A DNA stretch of 62,310 bases from Chthoniobacterales bacterium (GTDB taxonomy: Bacteria; Verrucomicrobiota; Verrucomicrobiia; Chthoniobacterales; JAATET01), in assembly GCA_036569045.1 (NCBI GenBank), contig DATCRI010000086.1, positions 1-62,310 on the forward strand, given 5' to 3'. The notes beneath the pieces were generated by a model that saw only the letters and a list, made by a program, of their open reading frames with translations, had not been told where the DNA came from and searched no databases. A program made the translations under genes and the position numbers. Positions 2,837-9,654 of this stretch are shown here, piece after piece; within the stretch, counting starts at the first letter, position 1, and the number at the start of each line of letters is the position of its first letter.

Positions 2837-4534
2837 CTACTCCACGGTGAACCACTGGACCTCGACGCGGCGTTTCTGGTCGGAGGAGTCGCCCACGGGT
2901 TCCTCCCAGCCACGCCCGACGACCTCGATGCGGGCGGGCGCAATTTTCTCCCGCTCGACGAGGAGGCGTTGAATTTCCGCCGCGCGATTCTTGCTCAGCT
3001 CCATCGCCTTGAGAGCCATCTTCCGCACGAAAGCCTCCCCGCCCTGCCGGCGAAATTCCGGGACCATGGCATCGTCCACGTGCCCACGCAGGAGCACCGT
3101 CGAGCCGGGCGAGACCTGCAGCAGTTTGCGAATGTCGTCCAGTCGCTCGAAGTTCTTCGTCTCGTTCAGATCGAGCACGGAGGAATTCGGCTCGAAGAAA
3201 AATCGAATGTCCTTGCTGAGGAGGGGATTATCTTCCACCGCCGCGAGATTTCCGGACCGGAGCGGCACAATCTCCATCTTCTGGTCGGCATACGCCCCGG
3301 ATTTTTCCAGCGCCTGCAGCGCCGCGAGGTCCAGGAAACGGCTGGCGTCCACGGGATCAGGGATAAGCTGCGGGCCGTAGGCATACACCGCCGACTGGTA
3401 GATTCCTCCGTAGCTGCCCGCGGAATCGATCGCGCCGGAGAAGAACGCGAGATCTTCAGGCAGGTTCGAAAAATGCACCTTGTCGAGCTCCTCTCGCGTC
3501 TCGGCCGCGGACCAGCCGAAAGCCTTCGCCACGACGGGAATCTGCGCGTCGCGCTGGGTGCGCAGAAGTTGCGCACCATGGATCGTGCCGTCCACGAGAC
3601 CGGCAACGATCGCGGGATTGGCCTGCGCGAACGGTTTGTTCACGACGAGGATATCCGCAACGATCAGCAGGTTGCGATTCGTCACGAGCACATCCGCGCG
3701 GCCGCCACTGGCCTCGGCGACCTCGGTCGTCTTCGGCGCCCAGGTCACGCAGCCCGCCAGCCGATTGGCGCCGGACTTGATGTCCTCGAGAAACAGGTCG
3801 CCGGCAGCGAAGGCATCCTCGCAGTAGATGAGGTTGATTTTTTCGGGGTCCGGCGTCTCGTCGAGACTCGACAGCATCGCGATCCCGATTCCCGCCTCCT
3901 GCGCGAGATAACGAATGAAGAAATCGGCCTCGGTGAACTGCGAGGTCGCGATGACCTTCCCCTTCAACCCGTTCACGCGACGGATGTCGGATCGCACCAC
4001 GACGCCATCCGCCCCGCGCGAAAACCCAATCTGCACCGGCACGACGACGTTGAACTGCCGCCCGTAGACCGCGAGCACATCCACCGTCGTCGCCGAGGCC
4101 GCCATCTTGCCGGCATTCAGCGCGCTCCAGCTCTCCTCCTCGCTCAACGCGATCCGCACCTTGAAGCCGTGCTTTTTGAAAAAATACGAGTTCTCGTTCG
4201 GCGCCAGCCCGCCATTGGCGGCAATCAACCCCGCATACCCGGCATACTCGCTCAGTTCGATGTCGATGATGTTGTCCTTCGGCAGGTAGGGTGCCGCGGG
4301 ACCGAGCTTCGGAGCCTCCGCAAGCGCCTCGATCGGGGCCACGGCTTCATCGTTCGCCGTCGCGGTGGGATTCGCCACGGTCGGCGTCGAGGAAGTCACG
4401 GTCGGCGCTGGCCCGGGGGCCGGCGCAGACGCTCGTTCGCGAAGCACGAAAAATCCCCCGAGGATAAGCCCCGCAACGAGCAGGAGGCTGAGAATGACGC
4501 CGAGCGGAGTGAGAGCGGGCTTGTCGGATTTCAT
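2837..4534 (-). CDS. Membrane-anchored periplasmic substrate-binding domain fused to OmpA-like domain
   Basis: 565 residues from the ATG at 4534; an upstream in-frame ATG at 4624 would overlap the preceding gene. One N-terminal transmembrane segment (about residues 9-30) is followed by a Pro/Ala/Thr linker. Next comes a NitT/TauT- or PstS-like type 2 periplasmic-binding fold (about 75-410), then a C-terminal OmpA-like peptidoglycan-binding domain. The OmpA part contains FFFEPNSSVLDLNE, a GHVDD segment, NRAAEIQRLL and GRGWEEPV. No ABC permease or ATPase gene is near, so import seems unlikely. As the last gene of the PspA/AAA operon, four bases after its neighbour, it may act as the periplasmic sensor or cell-wall tether of that system (inference). 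Confidence 0.88.
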   Translation of the reverse strand: MKSDKPALTPLGVILSLLLVAGLILGGFFVLRERASAPAPGPAPTVTSSTPTVANPTATANDEAVAPIEALAEAPKLGPAAPYLPKDNIIDIELSEYAGYAGLIAANGGLAPNENSYFFKKHGFKVRIALSEEESWSALNAGKMAASATTVDVLAVYGRQFNVVVPVQIGFSRGADGVVVRSDIRRVNGLKGKVIATSQFTEADFFIRYLAQEAGIGIAMLSSLDETPDPEKINLIYCEDAFAAGDLFLEDIKSGANRLAGCVTWAPKTTEVAEASGGRADVLVTNRNLLIVADILVVNKPFAQANPAIVAGLVDGTIHGAQLLRTQRDAQIPVVAKAFGWSAAETREELDKVHFSNLPEDLAFFSGAIDSAGSYGGIYQSAVYAYGPQLIPDPVDASRFLDLAALQALEKSGAYADQKMEIVPLRSGNLAAVEDNPLLSKDIRFFFEPNSSVLDLNETKNFERLDDIRKLLQVSPGSTVLLRGHVDDAMVPEFRRQGGEAFVRKMALKAMELSKNRAAEIQRLLVEREKIAPARIEVVGRGWEEPVGDSSDQKRRVEVQWFTVE

Positions 4535-4538
4535 GACT

Positions 4539-5360
4539 TTATGGGGATGATGTTGATGACCAGGGAGCTTCGATTTCGGGGCTGAAAACACTTTGCTGCT
4601 CGGAGATCCACCGGCGGGTTTCATCGAGTTCCCCGGCCACCCGGTCGATCTGGGAACCGATGCTTTCCGGACTGGTCGCCAGCCTCACCTCGTCGCCGAT
4701 CAGCGCCACCTGCTCCTCGATGCGAGCGAGTTCGGAATCGGAGAAGGCCAGTCGGCCCGTGCCCTCCGCGAGCGCTCCGCGCCGCCGCTCCAGAATCTCG
4801 ACCTGCCCGAGCAGGCTGCGGCGATGCTCTTCGCCGAGCCCCGGATCACCGGCTTGTGCGCGCAGCTTCTCGATTCGTTTGCCCAAGGATGCCGGGTTCA
4901 CGTTGCTCTCCTGGAGCAGACGTTCCATGGCGGCCTGCGTCGTCAGCAAATGGAGATGCAGCGCGAGCAGACGGTCGAGGCCATCGCGTTGCAGGCGCCC
5001 GATGGCCGAGTCTTCGTCCATGCGCTGCTCACGCAGGATGGCGTCGCATTTCGCGCGCAGATCGAGAAAGCGCTGTCGTCGCGACTCGTCGAGTTGAGCG
5101 ATGGCCGACCGCAGCCGCGACTCCTCGCTTTCCTCCGACGCCGCGCGCAATCGCGCATCGATCACCGCGCGAAATCGCGGCAGATGCGCCAGCCCCAGCA
5201 GGTAGGCAACCTCCAACCCTGCGCCAATCAGCCAGAATCCCGGATTGAGCAATCCAACCACCACGATGCCCGCCACCCCGATCCAGTTTGGCGGAATCGG
5301 CATGCCGAGCGGCCGCGCATTGAACGCCGCAACGACGTAGTCCTTCAGGCTCGCATTCAT
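4539..5360 (-). CDS. Membrane hairpin plus long coiled-coil protein of the PspA/AAA operon
   Basis: 273 residues. Two closely spaced hydrophobic segments (about 25-38 and 42-58) form a likely membrane hairpin. They are followed by about 200 residues rich in Glu, Arg and Leu with heptad character, predicted as a cytoplasmic coiled coil. No enzymatic motif is visible and I do not recognise a named family. The start is fixed by an ATGA overlap with the stop of the AAA ATPase gene. Position between the ATPase gene and the anchored OmpA-fusion gene suggests it links the cytoplasmic PspA/AAA machinery to the inner membrane, but that is inference. Confidence 0.85.
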   Translation of the reverse strand: MNASLKDYVVAAFNARPLGMPIPPNWIGVAGIVVVGLLNPGFWLIGAGLEVAYLLGLAHLPRFRAVIDARLRAASEESEESRLRSAIAQLDESRRQRFLDLRAKCDAILREQRMDEDSAIGRLQRDGLDRLLALHLHLLTTQAAMERLLQESNVNPASLGKRIEKLRAQAGDPGLGEEHRRSLLGQVEILERRRGALAEGTGRLAFSDSELARIEEQVALIGDEVRLATSPESIGSQIDRVAGELDETRRWISEQQSVFSPEIEAPWSSTSSP

Positions 5361-7039
5361 GGGGCTCCGGCTCCCGCGCGAAACACCTCGGGCACGAAAG
5401 CAGCATCCGTCGCCTCCGCGACCGCGAGGCCGATCTGAAATTTCATGATCTCCTCCGCCACGGGCGGCTGGTAGTCCGCCAGAGAAGTCGCGAGCGCCGC
5501 CTCCAGCGTCTCCCCGCCGGCATGAACCTGCCGATAGAGCTTCAGCGCGAGCGCCTCCGCCGCCCCGGGCGTCAGCCACGTCGGAACATCCGCCTCGAAT
5601 TTCGAGAACCAGTCCTCGGCGATCGCCAGATCGACACGCCGGGCAAGCGCACGCAGCAGCGCAAAGCTCTCGCGCTTCGTCGCGGTCGGAAAGATCGGAA
5701 TCTTCACATCCAGGCGCCCGGGGCGCTTGAGGTCGACCTCGATGAGGTCGGGCCGGCTCGACGCGAGGATCCACACGATGCGCCCGCGGTTGCGACGATC
5801 ACTCATCTCCTGCGCAAACATCGAATAAACGCGCCCGGAGAGGCCCGCATCATTGCTGCCGGAATCGCGCCGGCCAAGCGTCTGGTCCGCCTCGTCCACG
5901 AAGACAAAACAGCGCCCCACCGACCGCAGCAGCCGGAAGAGCCGCTCGAGATTTCCTTCCGTGCTGCCCACCCAGCGATCCCGAAAATTGCCGAGCTTGA
6001 TGACCGGCACGCCAGCCTCGCCCGCAAGGCACTCGACCGCGTAGGTCTTGCCCGTGCCGACGGGGCCGCAAAACAGGTAACCCATCGGCATGGCCCGCAG
6101 GTCGCCGCGGTTCCAGAGCTCGAGGTCCTGACGCAGCCACTTCTTGAGAGCCGGCTGTCCCTCGAAATCCTCCAGCGTGCGAGATGGCTCGATGAACTCG
6201 ATGAGATCGCCGCCCTCCGATTCGATGAGCGCCTTTTTGATTCCCGCGATGTCGCCCGGCACCAGCGGGGCCTGCTGCCGTCGGCGGATTTTCAACAGAC
6301 GCCGGATGGCTTTCACCGAGGCTCCGGTCAACTGCTCCGCCAGCGTCGTCTCCCGTCCCCGGAAGTCGCCAAGTGTCACGTCATCCGCGGCCTCCCGCAG
6401 GATCTGCGCAATCATTCCGGCATCGGGCAGCGGAACCTGAATCGCCGCGGCATCGGGATTGTCCGCGAGAAGCGGGTGCAATTCGCTGAGATTCTCGCTC
6501 ACCAGAAAGGTCGCGACGGGAGCGGCGCGGAGAGCCTCTTCGCGCGACCAGTCGCGCATGACGAGAGCGATCGCGTTCAGCTCGTGGTTCAACGCGTGCG
6601 GCGACGCGGGCGCGAGCAGGTTCGCCGATTGCACGAGCACCGCGACCTGAGGCCCCTTCTGGCCGAGCGCTCCGAGGTTCGCCACGTAGCGCAGATAATG
6701 CGTGATCGTCTCGATGGCCAGGCGGGGAATCTTGCGCCCCTCGAGATTCTCGATCGCTCCTCGCCATTTGGAAAACGTCTCTCCGCCCTTCAGCACCCGC
6801 AGGCCGTTGCCGAGATCGTAGGCCAGCACGACCTCGAAGCCCGGCAACAGAGCCCCGAGCAAAAAGTCCTCGAGTCCGCCGGAAGGTCGCCCGTCTTCGA
6901 GCGGGAACTCGTCGGCGACATTGCCACAGAGCAAAAACTGATTTGCGGCTTCGCTTTTGTAGAGCAGGGCGAGTTCCGCCGCCCAGCTCGGCAGTTCCCC
7001 CTTCTCCGGGGCGCTCGATGGCGAGGATTCGCTCTTCAC
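5357..7039 (-). CDS. Classical AAA ATPase with degenerate N-terminal half, partner of PspA
   Basis: 560 residues. The C-terminal AAA module has Walker A GPVGTGKT (325-332), Walker B FVFVDEADQ (378-386), a pore-loop-1 motif RWVGSTEGN (Trp356-Val-Gly) and the second region of homology with Arg439 and Arg442 in LKRPGR as arginine-finger candidates. The WVG pore loop is like that of Vps4/katanin- and FtsH-type substrate-threading AAA proteins. Residues about 30-290 look like an ATPase-like half without a P-loop, an architecture reminiscent of Ycf46. The gene begins ten bases after pspA and its stop overlaps the next start. Family assignment beyond AAA is tentative. Confidence 0.92.
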   Translation of the reverse strand: MKSESSPSSAPEKGELPSWAAELALLYKSEAANQFLLCGNVADEFPLEDGRPSGGLEDFLLGALLPGFEVVLAYDLGNGLRVLKGGETFSKWRGAIENLEGRKIPRLAIETITHYLRYVANLGALGQKGPQVAVLVQSANLLAPASPHALNHELNAIALVMRDWSREEALRAAPVATFLVSENLSELHPLLADNPDAAAIQVPLPDAGMIAQILREAADDVTLGDFRGRETTLAEQLTGASVKAIRRLLKIRRRQQAPLVPGDIAGIKKALIESEGGDLIEFIEPSRTLEDFEGQPALKKWLRQDLELWNRGDLRAMPMGYLFCGPVGTGKTYAVECLAGEAGVPVIKLGNFRDRWVGSTEGNLERLFRLLRSVGRCFVFVDEADQTLGRRDSGSNDAGLSGRVYSMFAQEMSDRRNRGRIVWILASSRPDLIEVDLKRPGRLDVKIPIFPTATKRESFALLRALARRVDLAIAEDWFSKFEADVPTWLTPGAAEALALKLYRQVHAGGETLEAALATSLADYQPPVAEEIMKFQIGLAVAEATDAAFVPEVFRAGAGAP

Positions 7040-7048
7040 GCGCGGCGT

Positions 7049-7783
7049 TTAACCCATCGTGCGCTCCGCTTCGGGGGCGGATCCGTCCGGTTCCGGCGAA
7101 GTGCCGAGCGAAATGCCTTCCTTCGCCGCGAAGTCGGCCAGCGCCTGATCGGCCAGCGCCTTCTGCTCCGCTTCCTTGATCTGAATGTCGCCCATGTCGA
7201 TGGAATCCTTCGCCACGCGCGCGCGTCCGGAGGCAACCTGCCGCTCCTCCTCGACCATCTCGTGCAGCCGATTGAGCGTGTCACCCGCGCCGCCGATCGC
7301 CCCGATCATTCCCGACGCCATCTCGTTCATCTCGGCGGTGGCACGCTTGATCTTCAGATCCGTGAGCGCGTATTTCAGCGATTCGATCTTGTCCCGCGCA
7401 GCCTTCACCGCAACATCCCGCGCCTTCAGCAGATCCTGATAGGTCTTCTCCGCAGCCTCCAGCTGCTGGCGATTTTCCGCAAGTTGCGCACTGACCGTCT
7501 GCAGGCGCAGCGCGTATTGCCCGGCGGCGTCGCGATTGCCGGCTTTCAGGTTCGCTCCCGCCTTCGCGCGAAGATCCCTTTCCTCGCCTTCGAGTTTCTT
7601 CACCTGCGTCATCAGGCGCTCGCACAGCCCGGCGTGGGAGGCCAGCCCCTGATTGTAATTCGCGATCTGCTTGCGCAAATTCTCCTTTTCCACCTCGAGG
7701 AGCGCTTCGGGATTGGCCTTCTCCAGACCGGACACAAACAATCCAAGAAATCCGCGGAAGAGGTTGGCAATGCGGGTGAACAT
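7049..7783 (-). CDS. pspA: PspA/IM30 (Vipp1) family membrane-remodelling protein
   Basis: 244 residues from the ATG at 7783, giving the typical start MFTRIANLFRGFLGLFVSGL, an amphipathic membrane-binding helix. It is followed by the PspA helical body (about 25-215) with long charged helices and the family-like stretch RATAEMNEMASGMIG. A Pro/Glu-rich tail ends the protein. PspA/IM30 proteins are bacterial members of the ESCRT-III superfamily that polymerise on stressed inner membranes. Here pspA leads an operon with an AAA ATPase, a membrane coiled-coil protein and an anchored OmpA fusion. No pspF, pspB or pspC gene is present, so control differs from the enterobacterial phage-shock system. 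Confidence 0.9.
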   Translation of the reverse strand: MFTRIANLFRGFLGLFVSGLEKANPEALLEVEKENLRKQIANYNQGLASHAGLCERLMTQVKKLEGEERDLRAKAGANLKAGNRDAAGQYALRLQTVSAQLAENRQQLEAAEKTYQDLLKARDVAVKAARDKIESLKYALTDLKIKRATAEMNEMASGMIGAIGGAGDTLNRLHEMVEEERQVASGRARVAKDSIDMGDIQIKEAEQKALADQALADFAAKEGISLGTSPEPDGSAPEAERTMG

Positions 7784-7827: not shown

Positions 7828-9654
7828 TCAGCGCCCGAGCTGCTCACGCGAGACTTCGCCGAAGTAGATTCCACGCGGCTCCCGGCGCCACCAGTCGTGA
7901 GTTTCCCGGCTTTCGACGAATGTCGTGAAGCGATAGTTGTCGAGGCGGGCTCGCACGTAGCGCGGCGGCTTTCCCCCAAACGGATCTCCCGCGAGCAATG
8001 CCAGCACCTCCGGCCGGCCCTCGAGCAGACGCGCGACAAATGGCCCCATCCATGGCGCTGACGAGACGTCCTGCATTGCGGCGAACCACATCTGCCAGTC
8101 GAGGCGCGGCAAATAGGGGCCGGTGAACGGCGGCCGGCGCCCCAGCGGTCCCGGCTTGAACCTGAAGACGTAGGGCCGCCATTCCACCCCGTCTTCGCTG
8201 CCCTCGATCGTGATCTCTGGCCGATCGGTCGTCATCACCGCGAAGAGCCCGTAGCCATTGACGCTGCGGAACGGCGCCACCCAGTCCCGCGCTCGCGCCA
8301 GCGGTTCGAGCACCCTCGGCATCGTTCGAAAAGCCTGAGCCAGCGGCACCAGACTCAAAGCCAGATAGGCAGCCGCGAAGGGAAGAAGGACCCATCGTGG
8401 CCAACCCACCTGAGCCGTTGCCCGCGAAGCGTCTCGCAGCGGGCGAGGCCACCCGGCATCGTCCACCAGCAGCAGCACGAGTGCCGCCACGAGCACGTTG
8501 AAAAATCCGTAGTTGCCCGTCAGCTCGATGAGAATCTGCAGCCCGAGAATTCCCGCCGCGGCAATCAGCCGCGGCCGCCGCGGGAGGAACATGAGGAACG
8601 GAAACCCCAGCTCGATCGCGAGCACGCCGGCGGATGACAGGCACTGAAACCACGCCGGCGCCTGCGCAGCGAGCCACGAGATCGGATTCGGAAGCGGCTG
8701 CGTGAAATAATGAAAATCCAGCGCCGTCAACCCGGCCCACGTCGGGTCGCCGCTCGAGAGCTTCACGACGCCCGAGGAGAACATCACCCGGAATAGCAGC
8801 CAGCCGAGCAGGAAATGCGCGAGCCGGCCCGGCCGACGAAACGTCAGATTCGGTCGCCACGCCCACGGCGCGACAAGGATCGCCAGCAGCCCCGTCTCGA
8901 GCAGCAACGCGTCCCATTGAAAGGCGTAGAAATCCTGCCCCGCGACGACGAGCGAAAGATACGCCACCCACGCCCCGGCCAGCGCCAGCGGCTGGGCAAT
9001 GCCGAGAACAACGAGCGCCGCGCAGCCGATTCCCACGCCGACGAGAGCGAACACCATTCCGTCACTCGCATTCAGCCACAGCACGGTCGGCCATCGCCAC
9101 CAGGCCTCCGAGCCAAACACCTGCGCCACCTGCGGCAAGACTTCCCGAATCGGCAGGATGCCGTGCTCGCCAATCAATCCCCTCGCCTGCACGCCGAAGG
9201 AAAAGAACGCCACCGCGTAGATCAATCCCAGCAGGCGCAGAAAAAGCGTTGTCGCCACGCCGTAGGTCGGCGGCGTGACATCCCGCCCCCACAGCAGGCG
9301 TGTGGCCCGCGAGAATATCCCGCGATTGCGGGCGACAAAGCCATACGCAGCATCCGCTCCCCCGCGGAGCCCCGGAACTCGGCCCAAGGCCCATACGATC
9401 GTCCGCGCCAGCCGGGAGGCCGTCGCGAGCGACCGGAACACCGCCTCCGCCGCCTCGTAGCGTCGGCCATCGCAATCGATGAACTGCACCGACCTTGCGA
9501 AGGCCTCCGCCGGAACGTCGGGAAACTCGGACGCCGCCTGTTGCGACGAGCGATACTCCACGCGGTCACCCGTCGTGGCGCGCCACCGCTCGATCCATAG
9601 GGTGCAAAACCGGCAATCGCCGTCGTAAATCATCAGCGGGCTGTCGCGCTTCAT
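7828..9654 (-). CDS. DCC thiol-oxidoreductase domain fused to lipase maturation factor-like membrane domain
   Basis: 608 residues. Residues about 1-115 are a DUF393/DCC domain with the thiol motif YDGDCRFC (10-17), a thioredoxin-like redox centre. From about 130 onward come multiple transmembrane segments and a C-terminal soluble part matching the lipase maturation factor (LMF) family. Visible LMF landmarks are QWDALLLETG in the membrane part and RFKPG followed by WQMWFAA in the soluble part. Eukaryotic LMF1 assists lipase folding in the ER; the bacterial role is not established. It is divergent from the rhomboid-like gene, with a 46-base gap. Confidence 0.88.
   Translation of the reverse strand: MKRDSPLMIYDGDCRFCTLWIERWRATTGDRVEYRSSQQAASEFPDVPAEAFARSVQFIDCDGRRYEAAEAVFRSLATASRLARTIVWALGRVPGLRGGADAAYGFVARNRGIFSRATRLLWGRDVTPPTYGVATTLFLRLLGLIYAVAFFSFGVQARGLIGEHGILPIREVLPQVAQVFGSEAWWRWPTVLWLNASDGMVFALVGVGIGCAALVVLGIAQPLALAGAWVAYLSLVVAGQDFYAFQWDALLLETGLLAILVAPWAWRPNLTFRRPGRLAHFLLGWLLFRVMFSSGVVKLSSGDPTWAGLTALDFHYFTQPLPNPISWLAAQAPAWFQCLSSAGVLAIELGFPFLMFLPRRPRLIAAAGILGLQILIELTGNYGFFNVLVAALVLLLVDDAGWPRPLRDASRATAQVGWPRWVLLPFAAAYLALSLVPLAQAFRTMPRVLEPLARARDWVAPFRSVNGYGLFAVMTTDRPEITIEGSEDGVEWRPYVFRFKPGPLGRRPPFTGPYLPRLDWQMWFAAMQDVSSAPWMGPFVARLLEGRPEVLALLAGDPFGGKPPRYVRARLDNYRFTTFVESRETHDWWRREPRGIYFGEVSREQLGR

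Follow-up and report, generated by a model that had tools for sequence, protein, structure and literature searches.

Polymerisation on the inner leaflet at a damaged or stressed membrane is established for the PspA family, a branch of the ESCRT-III superfamily. In their main text, Ravi et al. (2024) describe PspA in association with a protein carrying two AAA domains, of which the N-terminal copy is inactive, together with a PBPB-OmpA protein and often an ABC transporter, and they suggest an ATP-dependent, ESCRT-like (Snf7/Vps4) role in membrane remodelling (PMC11237479). According to that text, both the association and the Vps4-like suggestion have been published as a prediction since 2024 (PMC11237479). 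PspA itself is reported to hydrolyse ATP weakly, and a motor may therefore not be required (PMC11746142).

Here we describe a locus in a 62,310-nucleotide stretch of DNA from a Chthoniobacterales bacterium (the window, meaning the whole stretch that was analysed). Judged against the main text of Ravi et al., the locus is a transporter-less member of the same kind of operon (PMC11237479). New in this analysis are the strict co-inheritance of four genes, the presence of PspA in every ATPase-bearing genome checked, and a conserved tag in the PspA tail; neither the tag nor strict co-inheritance was found in the main text of that paper (PMC11237479). We propose, with a probability of roughly 0.55, that the locus encodes a patchily distributed, co-inherited membrane-remodelling module in which a dedicated ATPase takes hold of PspA by its tail so as to extract or remodel PspA polymers.

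Results

Four packed genes on the minus strand

The four genes run from position 7783 to 2837 of the window, all on the minus strand, and encode PspA, a two-domain AAA ATPase, a coiled-coil protein with a transmembrane (TM) hairpin (gene 3), and a substrate-binding protein fused to OmpA (SBP::OmpA). The first-pass annotation had described them as separated by a gap of 9, an overlap of 4 and a gap of 4 bases, and recomputation returned the same values. Its domain calls were correct apart from one AAA domain of the ATPase, and no pspB-, pspC- or pspF-like gene is among the four (Pfam, NCBIfam), as it had stated. The first gene, pspA (7049..7783, minus strand), encodes a 244-residue PspA/IM30 protein that passes the curated PF04012 cut-off over residues 2-220 (41.9 bits against 33.9) and is the sole PF04012 member in the genome of the window. 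A profile search at E 0.01 returned no solved relatives of this PspA subfamily.

Upstream, a co-oriented gene (7828..9654, minus strand; PF06762, PF25179, PF04134) encodes a DCC1-like thiol-disulfide oxidoreductase fused to a lipase maturation factor. Its end is 44 bp from pspA and the two genes share a strand; transcription may therefore extend beyond the four genes, although we regard the upstream gene as probably not part of the module. Convergent with the 3′ end of the operon is a plus-strand gene (2576-2809) for a 77-residue protein that contains successive A-[IV]-G-A-[FV] repeats (GVLAIGAFAVGAVAIGAVAVGRFAIGRL) and is without a Pfam match, which is preceded by a gene for a small putative lipoprotein (2192-2575).

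The ATPase has two AAA domains, the first of them degenerate

The second gene (5357..7039, minus strand, GTG start) encodes a 560-residue ATPase with a PF00004 match at residues 322-448 (E 5.9e-23). The protein has a pore loop (FRDRWVGSTEG), a Walker A motif (GPVGTGKT) and a Walker B motif (FVFVDEAD), and W356, G358, K331, D382 and E383 are invariant in 24 relatives. The protein consists of a degenerate AAA domain, D1, at about residues 17-270, and an active classical AAA domain, D2, at about 280-530, to which the Pfam match is confined. Walker A, Walker B, the pore-loop W and G and the RPGR arginines are invariant in D2; D1 is missing Walker A and Walker B and keeps the invariant G39, N40 and D43. 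The first-pass annotation had correctly reported an AAA domain with a WVG pore loop, but the second, degenerate domain had gone unreported.

An AF2 model built from an alignment of 24 relatives (pLDDT 82.5, pTM 0.73) matches tandem AAA proteins over residues 13-440, the best full-span match being Rix7 (Z 18.7, rmsd 4.8, 372 residues). D2 matched Vps4 with a Z of 16.6 over 157 residues, with FtsH, Msp1 and spastin about equal. In profile comparisons the D2 core scores closest to the Cdc48 and FtsH models, and the CdvC model gave 29.7 bits against a cut-off of 650. No MIT domain was matched in the ATPase by Pfam, and the N-terminal half models as a degenerate AAA domain. AAA proteins of the Cdc48, spastin and katanin types have W-x-G as well, so the pore motif is not Vps4-specific. 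The likeness to Vps4 that had been drawn from the WVG loop holds for the presence of the loop but does not extend to orthology: with a degenerate D1 in place of an MIT domain, and with scores nearer to Cdc48/FtsH than to CdvC/Vps4, the ATPase is not a Vps4 orthologue.

A PspF-like transcription activator is ruled out, as the ATPase is a classical AAA protein. A role in anti-phage defence was also rejected: in a PADLOC comparison the ATPase showed weak, generic AAA-core similarity to IetA of the Iet system (39.9 bits, residues 274-469), and no IetS protease was matched among the four proteins.

The four genes are inherited together

A scan of bacterial and archaeal genomes yielded 80 loci with ATPases 48-57% identical to that of the window, drawn from Verrucomicrobiota, Planctomycetota, Acidobacteriota, Abditibacteriota, Myxococcota, Thermodesulfobacteriota, Sumerlaeota and Pseudomonadota. 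PspA is encoded in 61 of 81 ATPase loci (window included; some contigs end early) and was found in 40/40 ATPase-bearing genomes tested, in 12 of which it lies outside the sampled locus. The first-pass annotation had named two findings that would refute its machine hypothesis, a lack of co-conservation of the four genes and an ATPase from families that never neighbour pspA; neither is the case. The layout of the window, PspA-AAA-gene 3-SBP::OmpA, recurs in twelve pseudomonadotal loci, contiguous and with no permease or ABC gene between, and a PspA-gene 3-AAA layout is found in Planctomycetota and others. Where pspA lies elsewhere, the ATPase gene follows one for a giant protein of 1069-1174 residues with 1-2 predicted TM segments (L029:6558-9908, L037:967-4176, L044:6409-9933); the giant protein of L044 is without a Pfam match.

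Co-conservation of the four genes is seen in the proteobacterial Pseudoxanthomonas family. There, 13 of 198 genomes have the ATPase, and the close PspA homologue, gene 3 and SBP::OmpA occur in the same 13, all adjacent and in the order of the window, so that the grouping is more than a chance one. The chance of identical 13-genome sets is about 1e-20, a figure that ignores relatedness and is not used here as a p-value. Within the phylum of the window, any PspA is present in 26 of 194 genomes, and the ATPase or its sister subfamily in 6 of 194. In a quick tree with an uncertain root, the window ATPase did not group with the other Verrucomicrobiota but next to a pseudomonadotal clade, in a set that it shares with 12 Pseudomonadota, a placement compatible with transfer or with deep branching.

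PspAs akin to that of the window carry a conserved C-terminal tag

The tail of the window PspA reads ALADFAAKEGI, a linker, and ERTMG, and we consider the RTMG tag (residues 241-244; 7049..7060, minus strand) a candidate engagement signal for the AAA ATPase. Three elements make up the tail across this PspA group: a helix (KEAEQxALADQALADFAAxEG[IL]), then a variable linker and, close to the C-terminus, a tag of the [KR][ST]MG type. In 26 aligned relatives, M243 never varies and G244 is conserved to at least 90%. Among 80 distinct tails of the group (last 30 residues), [KR]xM is present in 77 and [KRGQ]xM in 79, the sole exception to the latter being a frameshifted copy. The shorter xMG occurs in 64 of these 80 and in 4 of 35 other PspA tails, where the sequence context is different.

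The tag is absent at this place from PspA paralogues in the same genomes and from PspAs of genomes without the ATPase. Two related PspAs also lack it (G093 and G102, with no ATPase at the threshold used); these two, which are more divergent, make up the contrast set of related PspAs without a detected ATPase. One genome (G229) has a tagged PspA although its PspA and ATPase sit on different contigs, and no ATPase lies within the 1.5-kb flanks covered around the tagged PspA in G523, G525, G528, G531, G538 and G592. This distribution is what one would expect if the tail served the ATPase as a docking or engagement signal.

Unfoldase degrons, too, commonly take the form of a short C-terminal tag carried by a flexible linker. 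This, and the nearness of the D2 core to the Cdc48 and FtsH models, would suit an ATPase that acts as a degradation or quality-control unfoldase and removes whole tagged PspA, the tag serving as a turnover signal and the ATPase having no part in membrane scission or repair. We think such a role very unlikely: no protease domain or protease gene is found among the four, and the close solved relatives without a protease (Vps4, Rix7, Msp1) are remodellers or extractors.

Gene 3 and the sister ATPases

Gene 3 (4539..5360, minus strand) encodes 273 residues, with a TM hairpin at about residues 24-59, a long helical coiled coil at about 61-259 (AF2 model, pLDDT 86.7) and a conserved N-terminal motif, YxxAAFNARPLGMPxPPNW (family alignment). 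It matched no Pfam or NCBIfam family, and fold searches returned generic helical or BAR-like matches only (best VIA-align Z 9.8, below the informative level for long helices). No similarity to the PspA profile was detected (hhalign probability 0.2%), and homology of gene 3 to PspA/Snf7 is not supported by these comparisons. Matches to gene 3 inside the ATPase ORF, which appeared at the third profile iteration, were discarded as false positives in alternative reading frames. Within the PspA-linked subfamily, gene 3 is recognisable in 31 of 81 loci, a count affected by the rapid divergence of its homologues and by the shortness of many contigs. In two genomes from the same taxonomic order as the window (G051 and G017), gene 3 homologues are on contigs other than that of the ATPase. 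These homologues lie at L022:8200-9018, L023:9016-9831 and L025:8640-9614, two of them immediately behind the gene of a single-TM protein (~400 residues).

Four Verrucomicrobiota whose genomes gave no PF04012 match have a sister subfamily of ATPases, about 30% identical, alongside gene 3 and SBP::OmpA. Three of these four loci encode a divergent PspA-like protein of 249-251 residues that falls below the Pfam cut-off (L222:12841-13590 and L223:12972-13727, minus strand; L224:2995-3750, plus strand) and aligned with the PspA profile at an hhalign probability of 83.5% (E 8e-6). This divergent family (MFRAFKRLFIWLGLAAEKATETDAINQ...) has a KMGM motif near the C-terminus. Because ATPase, gene 3 and SBP::OmpA stand together in the sister loci without a standard PspA, their association appears to be older than the standard PspA partner, or else PspA diverged there.

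As the closest alternative to a motor for the PspA tail, the ATPase could have gene 3, or a membrane or transporter complex, as its main target and act as an assembly chaperone or gate, with PspA as only a membrane-stabilising companion. The sister ATPase adjoins gene 3 and SBP::OmpA without a standard PspA, three of the four loci having only a divergent PspA-like protein, so the ATPase could act mainly on gene 3; several phyla also have gene 3 placed between the genes for PspA and the ATPase. We nevertheless judge this alternative unlikely, as PspA accompanies the ATPase in 40/40 genomes even when unlinked, gene 3 is recognisable in the smaller fraction of loci given above, and three of the four sister loci still have the divergent PspA-like protein.

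SBP::OmpA is retained where the operon has no transporter gene

SBP::OmpA (2837..4534, minus strand; 565 residues) has a single N-terminal TM anchor, a periplasmic NMT1/SsuA-type ligand-binding domain and a C-terminal OmpA peptidoglycan-binding domain. The OmpA (E 7.6e-12) and SsuA-type SBP (SsuA_fam, E 2.4e-14) matches fall in the same protein (Pfam, NCBIfam). D487 and R517, which we take to be the peptidoglycan-binding Asp/Arg positions of OmpA, are kept in 26 of 26 aligned homologues covering them.

There is no ABC ATPase or permease within positions 2837-7783, and elsewhere the genome of the window has permease fragments only ~30% identical. The earlier remark that no transporter is present is true of the window; in relatives that share these genes, however, the operon also includes an ABC permease and an ABC ATPase. 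Five loci (L059, L068, L070, L075 and L082) are ordered SBP::OmpA-permease-ABC ATPase-gene 3-PspA-AAA, some with one extra gene between; the permease and ABC ATPase were Pfam-checked in L068 and L070, and the L068 permease is below cut-off. In Abditibacteriota-type operons, gene 3 and pspA are separated by an extra gene whose product of 244-249 residues belongs to no known family (L068:8266-9015, L059:7487-8221).

These long operons favour a transport-linked role, in which SBP::OmpA would capture a solute for an ABC importer while PspA and the ATPase remodel the membrane around it, as suggested for long operons in the main text of Ravi et al. (PMC11237479). For the module as a whole this seems to us quite unlikely. 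In the window and in the twelve complete pseudomonadotal loci no permease or ABC gene lies between the four genes, yet the SBP domain is kept (53-60% identical to the window in the pseudomonadotal four-gene loci), and the permease fragments noted above are all that the genome of the window offers.

Discussion

The first-pass annotation had proposed a PspA-disassembly motor with an envelope anchor. That interpretation is partly supported and remains the best one, with the conserved PspA tail in its favour; however, the idea is not new, and the motor is no Vps4 orthologue. Support comes from the distribution and order of the four genes, PspA in 40/40 ATPase genomes and the tail tag in 79/80 tails, as well as from the tandem AAA fold with an intact, Vps4/unfoldase-like D2 and the retained Asp/Arg pair of SBP::OmpA. 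The ATP-dependent remodelling proposed for this gene association in the main text of Ravi et al. points the same way (PMC11237479).

We infer that the ATPase is the motor and PspA its substrate. PspA would polymerise on the inner leaflet at a damaged or stressed membrane. The tandem ATPase, whose D1 is degenerate and may be of a docking type and whose active D2 has an aromatic pore loop, would engage the flexible PspA tail (conserved helix, linker and K/R-x-Met-Gly tag) and pull subunits out of the polymer, leading to recycling or constriction, as Vps4 does for ESCRT-III. We speculate that gene 3 is an adaptor whose TM hairpin and helical stalk bring either the motor or the polymer to the membrane, and that SBP::OmpA, through its inner-membrane anchor and its hold on peptidoglycan, could sense a ligand or the state of the envelope outside.

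More tentatively, and with the odds in our judgement somewhat against it, the ATPase could be a true functional counterpart of Vps4 in bacteria that recognises the helix and a K/R-T/S-M-G tag unique to partnered PspAs and is gated by the ligand-binding, wall-anchored protein. If true, this would be an externally gated ESCRT-III machine in bacteria. The strict co-inheritance of the ATPase, together with a short tail tag on PspA that follows its occurrence, provides a concrete substrate and a minimal mutation, making the "bacterial Vps4" idea directly testable, and cultured hosts are available for a direct test (Pseudoxanthomonas, Pseudomonas benzenivorans and Inquilinus limosus).

With the classical pspFABC system of E. 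coli the locus shares PspA, but its four genes are without PspB, PspC and PspF, and its ATPase is a classical AAA protein and not a sigma-54 activator. Cdc48/p97 and Rix7/NVL share the tandem AAA fold over residues 13-440 of the window ATPase, which differs from them in a D1 without Walker A/B, in that no Cdc48 N-domain was found, and in being bacterial and PspA-linked. The operons in the main text of Ravi et al. have in common with the window PspA, a two-AAA ATPase with an inactive first domain, SBP::OmpA, a TM-segment partner and the suggested ESCRT-like role; the window lacks the ABC ATPase and permease that are optional there, and the TM-segment partner there is a Snf7 homologue, and gene 3 has a TM hairpin but showed no detectable similarity to PspA in the comparisons above (PMC11237479). 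Compared with ESCRT-III/Vps4 (CdvB/CdvC; archaea and eukaryotes), the window has a tandem AAA protein with a degenerate D1 and no MIT domain found, an added periplasmic SBP::OmpA, and a PspA tail motif that by eye is unlike a MIM. What the two share is an ESCRT-III superfamily polymer, a classical AAA protein with a W-x-G pore loop, and the C-terminal tail of the polymer protein as a candidate recruitment signal.
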